From: Ruminiclostridium sp.
GTDB lineage: Bacteria > Bacillota > Clostridia > Oscillospirales > Ruminococcaceae
DNA: 35,366 nucleotides
Assembly: GCA_017625405.1 (NCBI GenBank)
Contig: JAGALB010000009.1
Coordinates: 1 to 35,366, forward strand
Reading direction: 5' to 3'
The notes beneath the pieces are model-generated. The model was given only the letters and a program-made list of their open reading frames with translations. It searched no databases and was not told the origin of the DNA. Both the position numbers and the translations under genes were made by a program. Below are positions 4,791 to 35,088 of the stretch, piece by piece (position 1 is the first letter of the stretch; every line of letters begins with the position of its first letter).

Positions 4791-7118
4791 ATGATGATGT
4801 GTTCAAGGTGCGGTAAGCGCCCTGCGGTAGTTTTTCTCGCAGGACTCAACGGCACAGAAAAATTTGAAAAAGGGTACTGTCTTACCTGTGCAAAGGAAAT
4901 GGGTGTACCTCAGGTGAACGAATACCTGAAGCAGATGGGTATTACCGATGAAGACCTGGAAAACGGTCTTGATATGCTTATGGGTATGGGAACCGATGAA
5001 ATGAATAATTCCGACGATGATTTCAGCGATATGCTCATGAATGACGAAGATGATGACGAGGACAGCGTAGGCGGATTCCAGAAGGGCGGCGCAAATATCC
5101 TCCCCCCTTTTATGGAAAAGTTTTTCGGCGGTACATCAAGCAACTCCGATTCAGACAAGAGTGCTGACAAGGATAAAAAAGAAAAGAAAAAGAAGAACAA
5201 GGATGCCAAAAAGCGCAAATTCCTTGAAACCTTCTGTACCAACCTCACAGGTAAGGCGAAAGACGGCAAAACCGACAGAATTATCGGCAGAGATAAGGAA
5301 ATCGAACGTGTTATCCAGATTCTCTCCCGCCGTACTAAAAACAACCCTTGTCTTATCGGCGAACCCGGCGTAGGTAAAACCGCTATTGCCGAAGGTATTG
5401 CCCAGAGAATCGTTGCAGGCGATGTTCCTTTCCGTTTACAGGATAAGGAGCTTTATCTCCTTGACCTTACCTCTCTTATTGCTGGCACACAGTTCCGTGG
5501 TCAGTTTGAAAGCCGTGTGAAGTCCCTCATTGACGAAATCAAGACAGCAGGCAATATTATTCTGTTTATTGATGAAGTTCACAATCTTGTCGGTACAGGC
5601 GGCGACGGCGAAGGAAATATGAACGCCGCAAATATGTTCAAGCCTGCCCTCTCCCGTGGAGAATTACAGGTTATCGGTGCTACCACATTTGCAGAATACA
5701 GAAAGCACATCGAAAAGGACAGCGCCCTTGAGCGCCGTTTCCAGCCCGTAACAGTGCTTGAACCTACTGTTGATGAAACAATTGAGCTTTTGAAGGGCAT
5801 CAAGGACTACTATGAAAATCACCACAAGGTAAAGATTTCCGAGAGCCTTATCCGTCCCTGTGTAACACTTTCGGAAAGATATATCACTGACAGATTTCTG
5901 CCCGATAAGGCAATTGACCTGCTCGACGAGGCTTCTGCCTGCGCAAGCATAAGAAGTGCGGAGCTTACTGATTTTGAACGTCTGACCAAGGAAAACAAGG
6001 CGCTTGAAGCAAAAGAATCCGAGCTTATGAGCGAAACTGAAATCGACTACGAAAAGCTTGCGGAAATCAAGACTGCACGTGCAAAGAATGATGAAAAACT
6101 CAAGGCGCTTGAGCCTATTGTTGAAAACGTAGAGCTTACAGCTTCCGATTTATCAACAGTTATAGAAATGTGGACCGGTATTCCCGCAAAGAAGATTATG
6201 GAAACCGAGTTCAAGAAGATTGCAAAGCTTGAAAACGTACTGAAAGAAAAAATCATCGGTCAGGACGAAGCCTGTGAAACGGTTGCCGCTGCGGTAAAGC
6301 GTACAAGAGTACAGCTTTCGGTAAAGCGCAGACCTGCTTCCTTTATTTTCGTAGGCCCCACAGGTGTCGGTAAAACACAGCTTGTAAAGGTGCTTGCCGA
6401 GGAATTATTCAGCGGTGTTGACCCCCTTATAAGACTGGATATGTCCGAATATATGGAAAAGCACAGCGTTTCCAAAATCATCGGTTCACCTCCCGGATAT
6501 GTGGGCTTTGACGATGCAGGACAGCTTACCGAAAAGGTACGCCGTAAGCCTTACAGCGTTATTCTTTTCGATGAAATCGAAAAGGCTCACCCTGATGTCA
6601 TGAACATCCTTTTACAGATTCTTGACGAGGGTAAGGTAAACGACTCTCACGGCAGAAGCGTAAACTTTGAAAATACCATTATCTGCATGACTTCAAACGC
6701 AGGCTCATCCGACAACTCCACAGGTCTTGGTTTCGGCAAGACTGCAGGGGATATTTCTAAGGAAAAGGCTATGAAGGCGCTCAGAGAATTCCTCCGTCCC
6801 GAATTTATCGGCAGAGTTGATGAAATCGTGGTATTCTCTCCCCTTACCGTGGAAAACTACGCAGATATCGCAAAGCTTATGCTTGAAGATATGACTCTTG
6901 CTCTTGAAGAAAACGGCATAAAGCTTACTATTGCTGACGAAGCTTATATGTGGATAGCCAAGAAGGCACACGGCGGTAAATACGGCGGCAGAGATATCCG
7001 CAAGGTTATCAGAAAGCAGATTGAGGATAAGGTTGCAAACCTTATTATTGACGCCGATACTCCCTTAAAGAAAATCAGCATTAAGGTAAACAAGACGGAT
7101 GAACTGGTAATAAAATGA
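4791..7118 (+). CDS. clpE: Clp AAA+ unfoldase with N-terminal zinc finger (ClpE-type)
   Basis: ATP-driven protein unfoldase that feeds substrates to the ClpP protease. The N-terminus is a CxxC...CxxC zinc finger (C4, C7, C30, C33) as in ClpE, not the double Clp-N repeat of ClpC. A long low-complexity linker follows: acidic at about 70-92 and strongly Lys-rich at 125-143. AAA domain 1 has Walker A GEPGVGKT at 190-197 and Walker B FIDE near 259. A short middle coiled coil spans about 395-445. AAA domain 2 has Walker A GPTGVGKT at 522-529 and Walker B FDE near 593. The tripeptide LGF at 646-648 lies where the ClpP-docking loop is expected. At 775 aa it is longer than Bacillus ClpE, mainly because of the linker. 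No CtsR or McsAB genes are nearby. Confidence 0.88.
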
Positions 7119-30673: not shown

Positions 30674-30911
30674 AAATAAAAAAAGACGGCTTTAGGATGT
30701 CCGCCATATAGAAGTTTTTAATCCCGCCGTTTCTCAACTGCGGGATTAATCATTTCTTATAAAAGGCGGGAACTGCCCAAAGGGGCTCCCTTTGGTGCGT
30801 CCGCCATATAGAAGTTCTTAACCCCGCCGTTTTGCAACTGCGGGGTTAGCTGTTTCATATAAAAGGCGGGGATTGCCCAAGGCGGCACACCTTCGCCGTC
30901 CTTTTTTATTT
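30674..30911. repeat. structured element: two 100-bp tandem repeats with inverted ends
   Basis: Two units of exactly 100 bases (30699-30798 and 30799-30898) begin with GTCCGCCATATAGAAGTT. Each holds an inverted repeat: AATCCCGC/GCGGGATT in unit 1 and AACCCCGC/GCGGGGTT in unit 2, with the base change mirrored on both arms. Outer flanks AAATAAAAAAAGACGGC (30674-30690) and GCCGTCCTTTTTTATTTT (30894-30911) are near-perfect inverted repeats. The element fills the gap between clpB and the acetyltransferase gene; its right end reaches the clpB stop at 30906. No ORF or transposase. Confidence 0.82.
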
Positions 30912-33503
30912 TATATAAAGCCCGTTTTCATCCGCATCAATGGTTATCATATCCCCTGCGTGGAGCTTGTCGCCGATAATTGCTCTTGCAATAAGGGTTT
31001 CCGCCTTACGCTGAATGAAGCGTGCAAGGGGTCTTGCACCGTAAATCGGGTCATAGCCGTTGTCGATGATATATTCCTTAGCCTGTGGTGTAAGCTGTAC
31101 CGATAATTGCTTGTCTGCAAGGCGCTTGCCGAGGGAAGCGATCATCAGGTCAACAATATCTGCAATTTCAGCTCTGCCTAAAGGCTTGTAATACACAATC
31201 TCATCAAGACGATTCAAAAATTCAGGTCTGAAGGACTGCTTCAGCAGCATATCAACCTGCTCCTTCGCTTCTTCGCTGATTTCTCCGTCAGAGGTGATAC
31301 CGTCAAGAATAAAGGGCGAGCCTAAGTTTGATGTCATAATGAGAATTGTATTCTTGAAATCCACAGTTCTGCCCTGACTGTCGGTAATTCTGCCGTCGTC
31401 AAGCACCTGCAAGAGAATATTGAACACATCGGGGTGCGCCTTTTCAACCTCGTCAAAAAGGATTACCGCATAGGGCTTTCTGCGTACCGCTTCGGTAAGC
31501 TGTCCGCCTTCGTCATAGCCTACATATCCGGGAGGTGCGCCGATTAAGCGTGACACGCTGAATTTTTCCATATACTCGCTCATATCAATGCGGACAATGC
31601 TGTTTTCATCATCGAAAAGCGCTTCTGCCAGCGCCTTTGCAAGCTCGGTCTTACCTACGCCCGTAGGCCCTAAGAACAGGAACGAGCCTAGGGGTCTGTT
31701 CGGATTCTGGATGCCTGCACGGGAACGCAGAATTGCCTCGCTGACCTTTTCAACTGCTTCATTCTGGCCTATAACACGCTTATGGAGAATTGCCTCCATA
31801 TTGAGAAGCTTTTCTCGTTCGCCTTCCATAAGCTTTGCCACAGGGATACCTGTCCAGCGGCAGATAATCTTTGCGATTTCTTCCTCTGTCACCTTATCAC
31901 GGAGAAGAGTGGAATTATTTTTCTGCTGTTCAGCCGCTTTTTCCGCAGCTTCAAGCTCGGCTTTCAGCTGCGGCAGTCTGCCGTACTGAAGTTCCGCCGC
32001 CTTGTTCAGATTATACTCACGCTTTGCCCTGTCGATTTCGCCGCCGATCTGCTCCATTTCCTTACGCAGATCCTGCAATTTCGTAATGGAGCTGCGCTCA
32101 TTTTCCCAGCGTGCTTTCATTGCAGAGAACTGCTCACGCATATCGGACAGCTCCTTGCGGATTTCGTCAAGATGCTCCTTTGAAAGATTGTCGCTTTCCT
32201 TTGTAAGCGCCGCTTCTTCGATTTCGTGCTGCATAATCTGTCTGGATAAATCATCAAGCTCGGTCGGCATGGATTCCATTTCCGTCTTGATAAGCGCACA
32301 GGCTTCATCCACAAGGTCTATTGCCTTATCAGGCAGGAAGCGGTCGGAAATATAACGGTTGGAAAGAGTTGCCGCAGCAATAAGCGCTGTGTCCTGAATC
32401 TTTACGCCGTGGAAAACCTCGTAACGTTCCTTTAAGCCACGTAAAATCGAGATAGTATCCTCAACGGTAGGCTCTCCTACAATAACAGGCTGGAAACGGC
32501 GTTCAAGCGCCGCATCCTTTTCGATATACTGGCGGTATTCGTTAAGTGTTGTTGCACCGATACAGTGAAGCTCACCACGTGCAAGCATAGGCTTTAAAAT
32601 ATTGCCTGCGTCCATTGCGCCGTCGGTTTTGCCTGCGCCTACAATAAGGTGAAGCTCGTCTATAAAGAGGATGATTCTGCCCTCGCTCTTCTTGATTTCC
32701 TGCAGCACCGCCTTGAGTCTTTCTTCAAATTCACCACGGTATTTCGCGCCTGCCACAAGAGCACCCATATCAAGGGAAAAGAGCTGTCTGTCCTTTAAGG
32801 AATTCGGCACATCCCCTCTTACAATACGCAGAGCAAGTCCCTCTGCAATAGCAGTCTTACCTACACCAGGCTCGCCGATAAGAACGGGATTGTTCTTGCT
32901 TTTACGGGAGAGGATACGGATAACGTTTCTGATTTCGCTGTCACGTCCGATTACAGGGTCAAGCTTGTTGTTCCTTGCAAGCTCAACCAGATCCTGACCG
33001 TATTTTTTCAGAACATCATAGGTGTTTTCGGGGTTGTCACTGGTTACATTTGTGTTTCCACGTACATTTTTAAGCGCCGCTAAAAACTTATCCTTTGTCA
33101 CATTGAAAGCCGAAAGGATTTCCTTAGTCTTGTCCTTTCCCTTTTCAATAAGCGCAAGGAAAATGTGTTCCACCGAAACATATTCATCGCCCATACGCTC
33201 AGCTGTTTCCTCTGCGCAGTTCAGTACACGGTCAGTATCCTGAGTGATGTAAACCTCATCGGGGCGTCTGCCGCTGCCTGTAACCCTGGGAAGTGCGGAA
33301 ACCGACTTTTCAGCCTGCTCAGCCATTGCCGCTTCATCAACGCCCATACTTTTCAGAAGCTGGGGAATAAGACCCTCCTGCTGTGTAAGGAGAGACAAAA
33401 GCAGATGCAGGGTATCAATCTGCTGGTTGGAATTTGACACTGCAATACTCTGGGCATTCTGTATTGCTTCAACTGATTTTCTTGTTAATTTCTGTGTGTT
33501 CAT
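30906..33503 (-). CDS. clpB: ATP-dependent disaggregase ClpB
   Basis: Chaperone that pulls apart protein aggregates with DnaK, in the cytoplasm. The 865-aa protein has two Clp-N repeats (about 1-150), AAA domain 1 with Walker A GEPGVGKT at 210-217 and Walker B FIDE near 285, a long coiled-coil middle domain (about 410-530) specific to ClpB, and AAA domain 2 with GPTGVGKT near 610 and [17 protein letters not shown]. There is no LGF/IGF ClpP-docking loop in domain 2, so it does not partner ClpP. Ribosome site AAAGGAG. It follows an RHH-type DNA-binding protein by 27 bases with no terminator between; no CIRCE or CtsR box was seen at the promoter. Confidence 0.97.
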
Positions 33504-33530
33504 ATTGTTCTCCTTTCTTTTGTCCGAAAA

Positions 33531-34193
33531 TTATATAATTACTATTCCGTTCTCCAGATACTCGTAATACCTGTCCACGGAAAGCTTTGCAGCAAGTCTG
33601 CGGTTTTCTATATTACCGAAATATATTTTCAGTATCTCATCAAACATTTTTATATATTCAGATATTGCCTTTGCAATTTCATCGTTACTTCGGTGTTCAA
33701 TCGCTTCGGGAAGTCTGAAGGTGCGGGTGAATCTGCCGTCCTCGATAGTATAGGAAATACCCTCGGGGAAGAACTTCATAATGTACTTGTTTTCAAGCTC
33801 TGCCCACAACTCAAGGAATTCGGTAAGATCCGCCTTGAGGTTTTCCGACTGTGTTCTGAAGGATACACGAAGCTGACCCATTGTCTTGTCAAAACTGCGG
33901 TAAAGCTCAAGCCCGTACCTTATGACAGGCTTGTATTTATATTTCAGAGCAGAGCGTATTGAAAGCATTGCATCAGAAGGCTGAGGCTGGATCTGAAAGC
34001 CCGTGCTTCCCATAAAGGCTTCAATGGCACCGAAAATATCGTTCATCCTCTTTTCGGGCGTTGTGTAGGACACCGCCTCCGCCAGAATTCCGTTTATCAT
34101 TGCAGAACGGCTGGTTCCCTTGCTGTATGCAAGGCGGTCGATAGCCTCAACAACGTCATCAGACAGCACAAGGCTGTATACGCTTTTCTTCAT
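33531..34193 (-). CDS. RHH-type DNA-binding protein upstream of clpB
   Basis: 220-aa protein with a predicted ribbon-helix-helix N-terminus: strand YSLVLS (5-10), then helices DDVVEAIDRLAYSKG and SRSAMINGILAEAV (11-42), the CopG/MetJ/Arc-like layout. The rest (about 45-220) is a helical domain that I do not recognise; it has a Tyr/Lys-rich middle (LKYKYKPVIRYGLELY) and could sense a ligand, a client or ClpB. First gene of the operon with clpB. A perfect 16-bp inverted repeat overlaps its own promoter, as expected for self-repression. ATG with AAAGGAGC. Role as clpB repressor is an inference from fold and position. Confidence 0.75.
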   Translation of the reverse strand: MKKSVYSLVLSDDVVEAIDRLAYSKGTSRSAMINGILAEAVSYTTPEKRMNDIFGAIEAFMGSTGFQIQPQPSDAMLSIRSALKYKYKPVIRYGLELYRSFDKTMGQLRVSFRTQSENLKADLTEFLELWAELENKYIMKFFPEGISYTIEDGRFTRTFRLPEAIEHRSNDEIAKAISEYIKMFDEILKIYFGNIENRRLAAKLSVDRYYEYLENGIVII

Positions 34194-34225
34194 ATTATAG
34201 CTGCTCCTTTCTCTTGTCTGAGGTT

Positions 34226-34254
34226 ATTGTATCATAATTTTAATAACTTGTCAA
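34226..34254 (-). promoter_or_regulatory. sigma-A promoter of the RHH-clpB operon
   Basis: Minus strand: TTGACA at 34249-34254, 17-base spacer, TACAAT at 34226-34231. The spacer and the edge of the -35 are covered by one arm of the 34236-34290 inverted repeat. Confidence 0.9.
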
Positions 34255-34290
34255 TAGTTTTATTAATTTTAATTACAAGTTATTAAAATT
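34236..34290. promoter_or_regulatory. perfect 16-bp inverted repeat, candidate RHH operator
   Basis: AATTTTAATAACTTGT at 34236-34251 is repeated as its exact reverse complement at 34275-34290, centres 39 bases apart. One arm lies in the RHH-clpB promoter; the other lies seven bases upstream of the -35 of the divergent carboxypeptidase gene. Half-sites nearly four helical turns apart suit cooperative binding by RHH dimers. Confidence 0.78.
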
Positions 34291-34296
34291 CTCCCC

Positions 34297-34325
34297 TTGA
34301 TTTTTTTGTCGTAATAGGTTATACT
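34297..34325 (+). promoter_or_regulatory. sigma-A promoter of the carboxypeptidase gene
   Basis: TTGATT at 34297-34302, 17-base spacer, TATACT at 34320-34325; divergent from the RHH-clpB promoter and next to one operator arm. Confidence 0.75.
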
Positions 34326-34362
34326 TTAAAGAAAACGGGCATTTTACGAAAGGAGGCAAGAC

Positions 34363-35088
34363 ATGAGCACAAAAAAGATATTTATTATCAATATGATTAT
34401 GCTGGCTCTGGCGGCAATTGTCTTTACCGTTATAAATCTTGTCCCCAATGATGCCGATAAACTGAAGCAGATACAGGAAAACTACGCCGAAGAAGCTCAG
34501 AAAGGCATAGACAACAGCTGGGCGTACTTTCTTATAAACGAAGAATTTCCTCTTCCCGACGGATATACACCTGAGCTTGCCCATGTCCAGGGCGTTTATA
34601 TGATGGATGAACGGTGTGCGGAATATGCAAAGACAATGATCGAAGCGGCAGCGGCAGACGGAATAGATTTATGTGTGGTATCGGCCTACCGCAGCATAGA
34701 AAAGCAGCAGGAAAATCTTGAGAGCTATACTCAGCGGCTTATAAACGAAGGGCACGCTCCCGAAGAGGCTGAAAAGCTCGCTCTTATGGAGATTGCTGAA
34801 CCTGGAAAAAGCGAACACAATGCAGGGCTTGCCCTTGATATACTTACATATGACTGGTGGGAAACACATGACGATGTAACCGCAGACTTTGAAAACACAG
34901 AAGAATTTCTGTGGCTTCAGGAAAACGCCCACAAATACGGTTTTATAATGCGCTATCCCAAAGAATGGGAAAATACTACAGGCTATACTTATGAGCCGTG
35001 GCATTACAGATTTGTAGGACTCTACTACGCAAAGGAAATCAGAAATTCAGGACTGCCCTTTGAATATTATTACAAGATGAACTTCTGA
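34363..35088 (+). CDS. D-alanyl-D-alanine carboxypeptidase, VanY/M15B-type
   Basis: Zinc peptidase of the M15B group that trims the terminal D-Ala from peptidoglycan stem peptides outside the membrane. The 241-aa protein has one N-terminal anchor helix (about 6-26). The substrate Arg/Gln block SAYRSIEKQ is at 107-115, SEHNAGLALD at 150-159 carries zinc ligands H152 and D159, and YEPWHYRFVG carries H214. Catalytic Glu is E211. AAAGGAGG precedes the ATG. Nothing suggests a vancomycin-resistance cluster; a housekeeping wall-remodelling role is more likely. Its promoter shares an inverted repeat with the divergent RHH-clpB operon. Confidence 0.92.
   Translation: MSTKKIFIINMIMLALAAIVFTVINLVPNDADKLKQIQENYAEEAQKGIDNSWAYFLINEEFPLPDGYTPELAHVQGVYMMDERCAEYAKTMIEAAAADGIDLCVVSAYRSIEKQQENLESYTQRLINEGHAPEEAEKLALMEIAEPGKSEHNAGLALDILTYDWWETHDDVTADFENTEEFLWLQENAHKYGFIMRYPKEWENTTGYTYEPWHYRFVGLYYAKEIRNSGLPFEYYYKMNF

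Follow-up and report, generated by a model that had tools for sequence, protein, structure and literature searches.

The rhh-clpB locus

The window analysed here, the whole stretch of 35,366 nucleotides, is one entire contig (C64) of a 2.1 Mb assembly that is 99.93% complete. Towards its right end, a gene for a predicted ribbon-helix-helix (RHH) protein, here called rhh, precedes clpB on the minus strand with a gap of 27 bp, and a scan of 33400-34400 found no terminator-like site on the minus strand. The features of the locus are the following:

30906-33503, minus strand: clpB, the second gene of the operon, encoding a full-length disaggregase (TIGR03346 ClpB equivalog, 1339.8 bits against a cut-off of 1232.1)
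33531-34193, minus strand: rhh, 220 aa, ATG start, N-terminal RHH and a C-terminal domain of ~170 residues
34226-34254, minus strand: operon promoter, TTGACA at 34254-34249, 17-nt spacer, TACAAT at 34231-34226, 11 of 12 consensus bases
34236-34251: promoter-proximal repeat arm, perfect, 16 bp, inside the -35/-10 spacer, most of which it covers, and reaching the edge of the -35
34239-34288, minus strand: 50-bp candidate operator, model R1 (arm, centre, arm), 41.7 bits, E 2.4e-10
34258-34269: central element, family consensus TTATATAA; the window copy lacks one base and reads TTAATAA on the minus strand
34275-34290: promoter-distal repeat arm, perfect, 16 bp
34363-35088, plus strand: VanY-type carboxypeptidase gene, divergent from rhh, a neighbour only and outside the conserved unit

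An earlier note on this DNA had placed the RHH protein first in an operon with clpB, and this arrangement held, with an RHH_5 domain match at its cut-off, the ClpB equivalog threshold passed and the short intergenic gap. The -10 element of the operon promoter is extended, TG preceding TACAAT. The VanY gene has a promoter candidate at 34297-34325 that matches just 9 of 12 consensus bases, and the scanned region of the locus contains four promoter-like sites against 2.8 expected. The note had also tied the inverted repeat to this divergent gene. Co-regulation of VanY through a repeat shared by the two genes was considered and dropped: among 30 loci, only the fetched stretches of L001-L003 include VanY, and among the best 80 only those of L031-L033 do, and since it adjoins rhh in the closest relatives only, its presence is incidental.

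Two adjoining direct repeats of 100 nt, 80% identical, lie directly downstream of clpB at window 30690-30889. A second Clp ATPase is encoded on the plus strand at window 4791-7118; its N-terminus carries CxxC, it is ClpE/ClpC-like by eye, and it falls under the ClpB cut-off.

Domain composition of the RHH protein

By its sequence, the window protein belongs to the ribbon-helix-helix superfamily, with individual domain scores that are modest. Pfam RHH_5 matches residues 8-42 (E 7.5e-6) at 26 bits, equal to the cut-off of 26 bits, RHH_1 lies under its cut-off (E 0.0022), and the best PDB match is CopG over residues 7-37 (E 0.027); the domain itself extends over about residues 3-45. Among 73 homologues, RHH_1 was matched by 56 and RHH_5 by four at E<=0.01. 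Searches of Pfam, NCBIfam, PHROGs and PADLOC assigned the C-terminal ~170 residues to no family convincingly; the weak match to OGT_N, seen in two of the 73 homologues, does not reach the cut-off for the window protein.

All 24 homologues found by means other than the KSVYSLVL peptide carry the strand KSVYSLVL unchanged, and the recognition strand varies beyond the close set (L203, L205-L208, L212, L219 and G074). No position that is invariant or nearly so across the 73 homologues is a Cys or a His, a mild argument against a thiol or metal switch.

Association of rhh with clpB across genomes

A single copy of rhh was found in each of 43 of 99 related genomes, the window's own included, the other proteins being 38 to 78% identical to that of the window, and clpB lies directly after it on the same strand in all 43 (30 loci were fetched and the remaining 13 judged from the coordinates of the search matches). 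True ClpB was judged present in 54 of the 99 (51 with an E of 0, the other three being high-identity pieces truncated at contig ends), 45 genomes have neither protein, and none has the RHH protein without ClpB (Fisher p 5.8e-18, genomes treated as unrelated). In G023 and G030 there is one stop within the clpB match.

A scan of named genomes, partly overlapping these 99, was seeded by short family peptides including KSVYSLVL and is therefore biased to members carrying that strand; it matched 263 relatives, and the best 80 were retained. Among these best 80 of 263 matches, clpB was downstream in all 77 assessable loci, at most 600 bp away in 74 and at about 1.35 kb in three (L092, L093 and L097; in L092 one gene of 437 aa separates it from rhh), and in three of the 80 the contig stops within 210 bp of rhh. 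The record titles of rhh loci name Oscillospiraceae, Lachnospiraceae (Catonella, Cuneatibacter, Hominifimenecus, Marvinbryantia) and Christensenella (Christensenellaceae); one record titled Bacteroides is taken for a mislabelled MAG.

Across the class, 22 of 291 genomes matched the RHH protein, comprising 20 members and two weak matches without clpB (L217, L218). All 18 class-wide loci L199-L216 have clpB next, at identities down to 29%; at least three of them come from genomes that the earlier sets had included, and the sets overlap. Stops fall within the matched stretch in two class-wide members (G278 and G357). ClpB was detected at E 1e-300 in 124 of the 291 genomes, 17 of which are RHH members (clpB is cut by contig ends in the remaining three members), which argues that most ClpB genomes of the class use other control. 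Across the phylum, four of 398 genomes matched, three of them previously counted, and the fourth (L219) also has clpB next. On a ClpB tree considered for signs of a regulator swap (first 450 residues, a quick method, 96 rows from 106 loci, ten having failed the coverage cut), the RHH label requires five changes and the seven RHH-less rows are scattered, with 25 of the 91 inner branches open.

Structure of the candidate operator

The earlier note had reported a perfect 16-bp inverted repeat over the spacer of the operon promoter, and the repeat is real: when the 169-bp intergenic stretch was shuffled 1,500 times with dinucleotides preserved, the longest perfect arm was 13, and in extended form the repeat reaches 21 nt at 90%. 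Perfect arms of this length are a local feature, found only in the window (16 bp) and its closest relative L031 (15), with 11 in L033. The form that is conserved is a palindromic operator of ~50 bp with a central element, rather than two arms alone, lying over a near-consensus promoter, and the window repeat is its local version.

The consensus of 72 selected sites, TTTAATAATTTGTAAATAAAATTATATAAAACTATTGACAAATTATTAAA, is followed by the extended -10 and is near its own reverse complement, with arms at positions 3-12 and 39-48 (TAATAATTTG and CAAATTATTA) symmetric about TTATATAA at 22-29 (axis 25.5). Scored as a dyad, the 72 operators reach 0.626 at their central axis, whereas the 80 centres tried average 0.343 (sd 0.055). 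When the upstream regions of rhh were aligned, anchored on the best operator-core match, the operator block was far better conserved than its flanks, with conserved bases between the -35 and the -10 as well as in an arm situated 23-32 bp before the -35. Of 81 upstream regions, 72 match a 26-position operator core at 22 or more positions, a level that none of 1,620 shuffles reaches (shuffle maximum 20); the regions under 22 were L033, L062 and L089 (21), L103 (19), L088 and L100 (17), L087 and L090 (16), and L070, of which only 73 bp are available. Symmetric covariation of the arms was tested as proof of pairing and dropped, the observed value across species (0.617) being that expected from the columns (0.617).

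The operator drifts at some loci. By eye, L087, L088, L090 and L100 are without the usual operator and carry another block: upstream of rhh in L087, TTGCAAA adjoins the perfect palindrome GTTATTAATAAC, of which L088, L090 and L100 have imperfect versions, with a TTGCAA -35. The KSVYSLVL strand is unchanged in these loci. Upstream of rhh in L210, the operator centre is lengthened to a 22-bp palindrome, AATGATGTTATATAACATCATT, which supports TTATATAA as the axis of the operator.

Genomic distribution of the candidate operator

Model R1 was built from 52 training rows, the window copy among them, and applied with stricter filters to 60 genomes of the genus, many of which are sources of training rows; since the model was trained partly on genus sequences, only the uniqueness of the site and the blank RHH-negative genomes are informative. 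One strong site of 33.5-50.5 bits, at rhh-clpB, was found in each of 38 of the 39 RHH-positive genomes, the exception being G030, where the contig begins inside rhh, and none of the 21 RHH-negative genomes has a site. Six extra rows are the same sites on the opposite strand, as expected of a palindrome, and three rows elsewhere score 21.5 to 23.0 bits. The recurrence of gene pair and operator in related genomes, which the earlier note had offered as a check on its reading, is thus found for both across Clostridia, in 43 of 43 carriers for the pairing and in 38 of 39 RHH-positive genus genomes for the operator.

In the class-wide set, R1 sites at E<=0.001 were found at rhh-clpB in 12 of the 20 RHH genomes and were absent in eight under strict filters. 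Twelve class-wide sites reach 26 bits, 11 of them at rhh-clpB and one before hrcA in the RHH genome G356; weak sites of at most 23.1 bits occur in 11 of 271 RHH-negative class genomes. The operator is nearly restricted to one operon per genome.

Five class-wide secondary sites were opened, with genes named by eye: four of them precede hrcA (G356), a Fur-like gene, a 74-aa frame and a frame of 371 aa containing a membrane-like stretch; after the fifth, the contig ends before any frame of 60 aa. In the window's genome the next-best R1 site, at 21.5 bits, precedes an apparent thiamine-transporter gene (thiT). A wider regulon was considered and rejected on the basis of the six opened secondary sites (thiT and the five class-wide ones), five of which resemble ordinary strong promoters with A-tracts, the exception being the hrcA site of G356. 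That site (L230, G356:C1:101488-101525, 27.7 bits) lies before an apparent hrcA and is followed by a CIRCE-like half (by eye), and possibly reflects a link between the two repressors, or chance. The thiT site (L158, G000:C55:14820-14848) is a strong promoter like the right half of the operator, with a leader that resembles a TPP riboswitch by eye only, before the likely thiamine transporter gene.

Standard heat-shock regulators and comparison with known systems

The earlier note had seen no box for CtsR or HrcA, and scans confirmed this: the window has no CIRCE at up to three mismatches and no CtsR box at up to two, and no CIRCE and no exact match to the CtsR box was found in 81 upstream regions of rhh of at most 400 bp, some of them shorter. 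No HspR box was found near rhh-clpB, the sole window match, at 1220 with two mismatches, being fewer than chance expects. No match to the CtsR domain PF05848 was found in the window's genome or in the other 59 genomes of the genus, an absence common to RHH-negative members as well and thus not independent evidence; CtsR is present in 25 of the 99 related genomes and coexists with the RHH protein only in G074. The window RHH protein itself gave no CtsR match in Pfam up to E 1.

HrcA is present in the window's genome, where perfect CIRCEs precede groES-groEL, hrcA-grpE-dnaK and htpG (groE, htpG, grpE and dnaK being named by eye from translations) and none is found at clpB. Eleven of the 99 related genomes have ClpB without the RHH protein, and seven of these were examined upstream of clpB: CIRCE precedes the gene in G066, G072, G090 and G098, a near-CIRCE (by eye) in G082, and neither is found in G067 or G086. 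Of the other four, the contigs of G007 and G070 start inside clpB, that of G055 ends 87 bp upstream, and the clpB start of G097 is ambiguous.

HspR, one of the known chaperone repressors, is a MerR-type protein. It represses clpB in actinobacteria (PMC2687793) and is under DnaK feedback (PMC6032397); it differs from the system described here in that its regulon includes several genes. CtsR is described in PMC3472708 as the main repressor of clp genes in Gram-positives, and it differs in that neither its domain nor its box was found, in the genome and at rhh-clpB respectively. The likeness to HrcA/CIRCE is one of arrangement, in that a repressor is often encoded together with the chaperones it controls, as rhh is with clpB in every one of the 43 carriers; HrcA depends on GroE for its activity and loses it when GroE is titrated away (PMC6032397). 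The difference is that the RHH protein is of another family and the operator is another. By the sequence and box tests made, the RHH protein is not CtsR, HrcA or HspR. With CopG, AmrZ, Arc and MetJ it shares the predicted N-terminal ribbon-helix-helix, and binding as dimers to half-sites with autorepression is proposed here too, as described for AmrZ, an N-terminal RHH protein that binds repeated half-sites as dimers and represses its own gene (PMC3325190). It differs from these proteins in its chaperone-gene partner, the three-part palindrome of ~50 bp and the long C-terminal domain without a known family.

Proposed mechanism and alternative explanations

The single-copy pairing, the conservation of the operator, its near restriction to one operon and the lack of standard sites at clpB together argue for a dedicated repressor. 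We consider it probable (roughly 0.8, a figure that covers this core and no particular signal) that the RHH protein is an autorepressor dedicated to the rhh-clpB operon. RHH dimers would occupy the two arms and the central TTATATAA of the palindrome, and because the proximal arm falls in the promoter spacer and the centre directly precedes the -35, bound protein should keep RNA polymerase off the operon promoter. Upon relief of repression, the repressor and ClpB would rise together. Binding, repression and induction by heat or stress are inferred from sequence; repression is suggested by the overlap of the site with an already strong promoter and by the habit of the RHH family, most members of which are repressors according to PMC3325190. 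The most likely signal, by analogy with HrcA-GroE and HspR-DnaK (PMC6032397), would be proteotoxic stress, sensed through the C-terminal domain itself or, alternatively, through loss of the free ClpB that normally supports the repressor.

Nested within the dedicated-repressor explanation is the possibility that the protein does repress clpB and responds to a signal other than protein damage, such as a metabolite or a growth-phase cue. The C-terminal domain without a family match would be consistent with this; the only conserved target, however, is a disaggregase, an enzyme that serves in protein damage, and we regard such a signal as somewhat unlikely.

Activation of the operon by the RHH protein, rather than repression, appears improbable. 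In its favour, the centre of the operator falls immediately before the -35, a position near -45 that is in itself compatible with activation, and the RHH proteins AmrZ and H. pylori NikR can activate (PMC3325190). However, the near-consensus, TG-extended promoter needs no help, and the proximal arm sits within the -35/-10 spacer.

The conserved block could also be merely a strong promoter with an AT-rich UP element, the RHH protein acting elsewhere or as a cofactor of ClpB. It does contain the -35 and A/T-rich upstream sequence, and weak model matches occur at other strong promoters (thiT, the five class-wide sites and the 11 RHH-negative genomes). Yet particular bases of the spacer and of the far upstream arm are conserved, the block forms a dyad, and no genus site other than that at rhh-clpB scores above 33 bits, so that we give this explanation little credence. 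That the RHH protein is the antitoxin of a toxin-antitoxin module adjoining clpB by chance is most improbable: the NCBIfam matches to antitoxin families such as VapB and BrnA are weak, with the window protein far under the cut-off, whereas the constant partner in assessable loci is clpB and no toxin gene, and PADLOC gives no match.

A more specific form of the dedicated repressor can be put forward tentatively. The C-terminal domain of the RHH protein may be read by ClpB, such that a disaggregase engaged with aggregates would stop supporting the repression of its own operon, and in several lineages of Clostridia this arrangement may have taken over the control of clpB from CIRCE or CtsR.

Significance

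How clpB is controlled in Clostridia that have neither CtsR nor a CIRCE at the gene is a question without an answer in the open-licence literature searched, and no description of an RHH regulator of clpB was found in the open-licence literature of PubMed Central. The earlier note had proposed a new class of chaperone regulator; of this, the part that stands is a predicted RHH regulator tied to clpB by gene pairing, operator and the absence of CtsR and HrcA sites. The rhh-clpB pair and its near genome-unique control site point to an undescribed switch for the clpB stress gene, and the system offers one protein, a precise candidate operator and a regulon of nearly one operon. If ClpB or aggregates are what the repressor senses, it would add a further design of chaperone-feedback repressor beside HrcA-GroE and HspR-DnaK. 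A repressor read by ClpB would, if that proposal is true, represent a new class of chaperone-coupled heat-shock repressor, with feedback through ClpB and not through GroE or DnaK.
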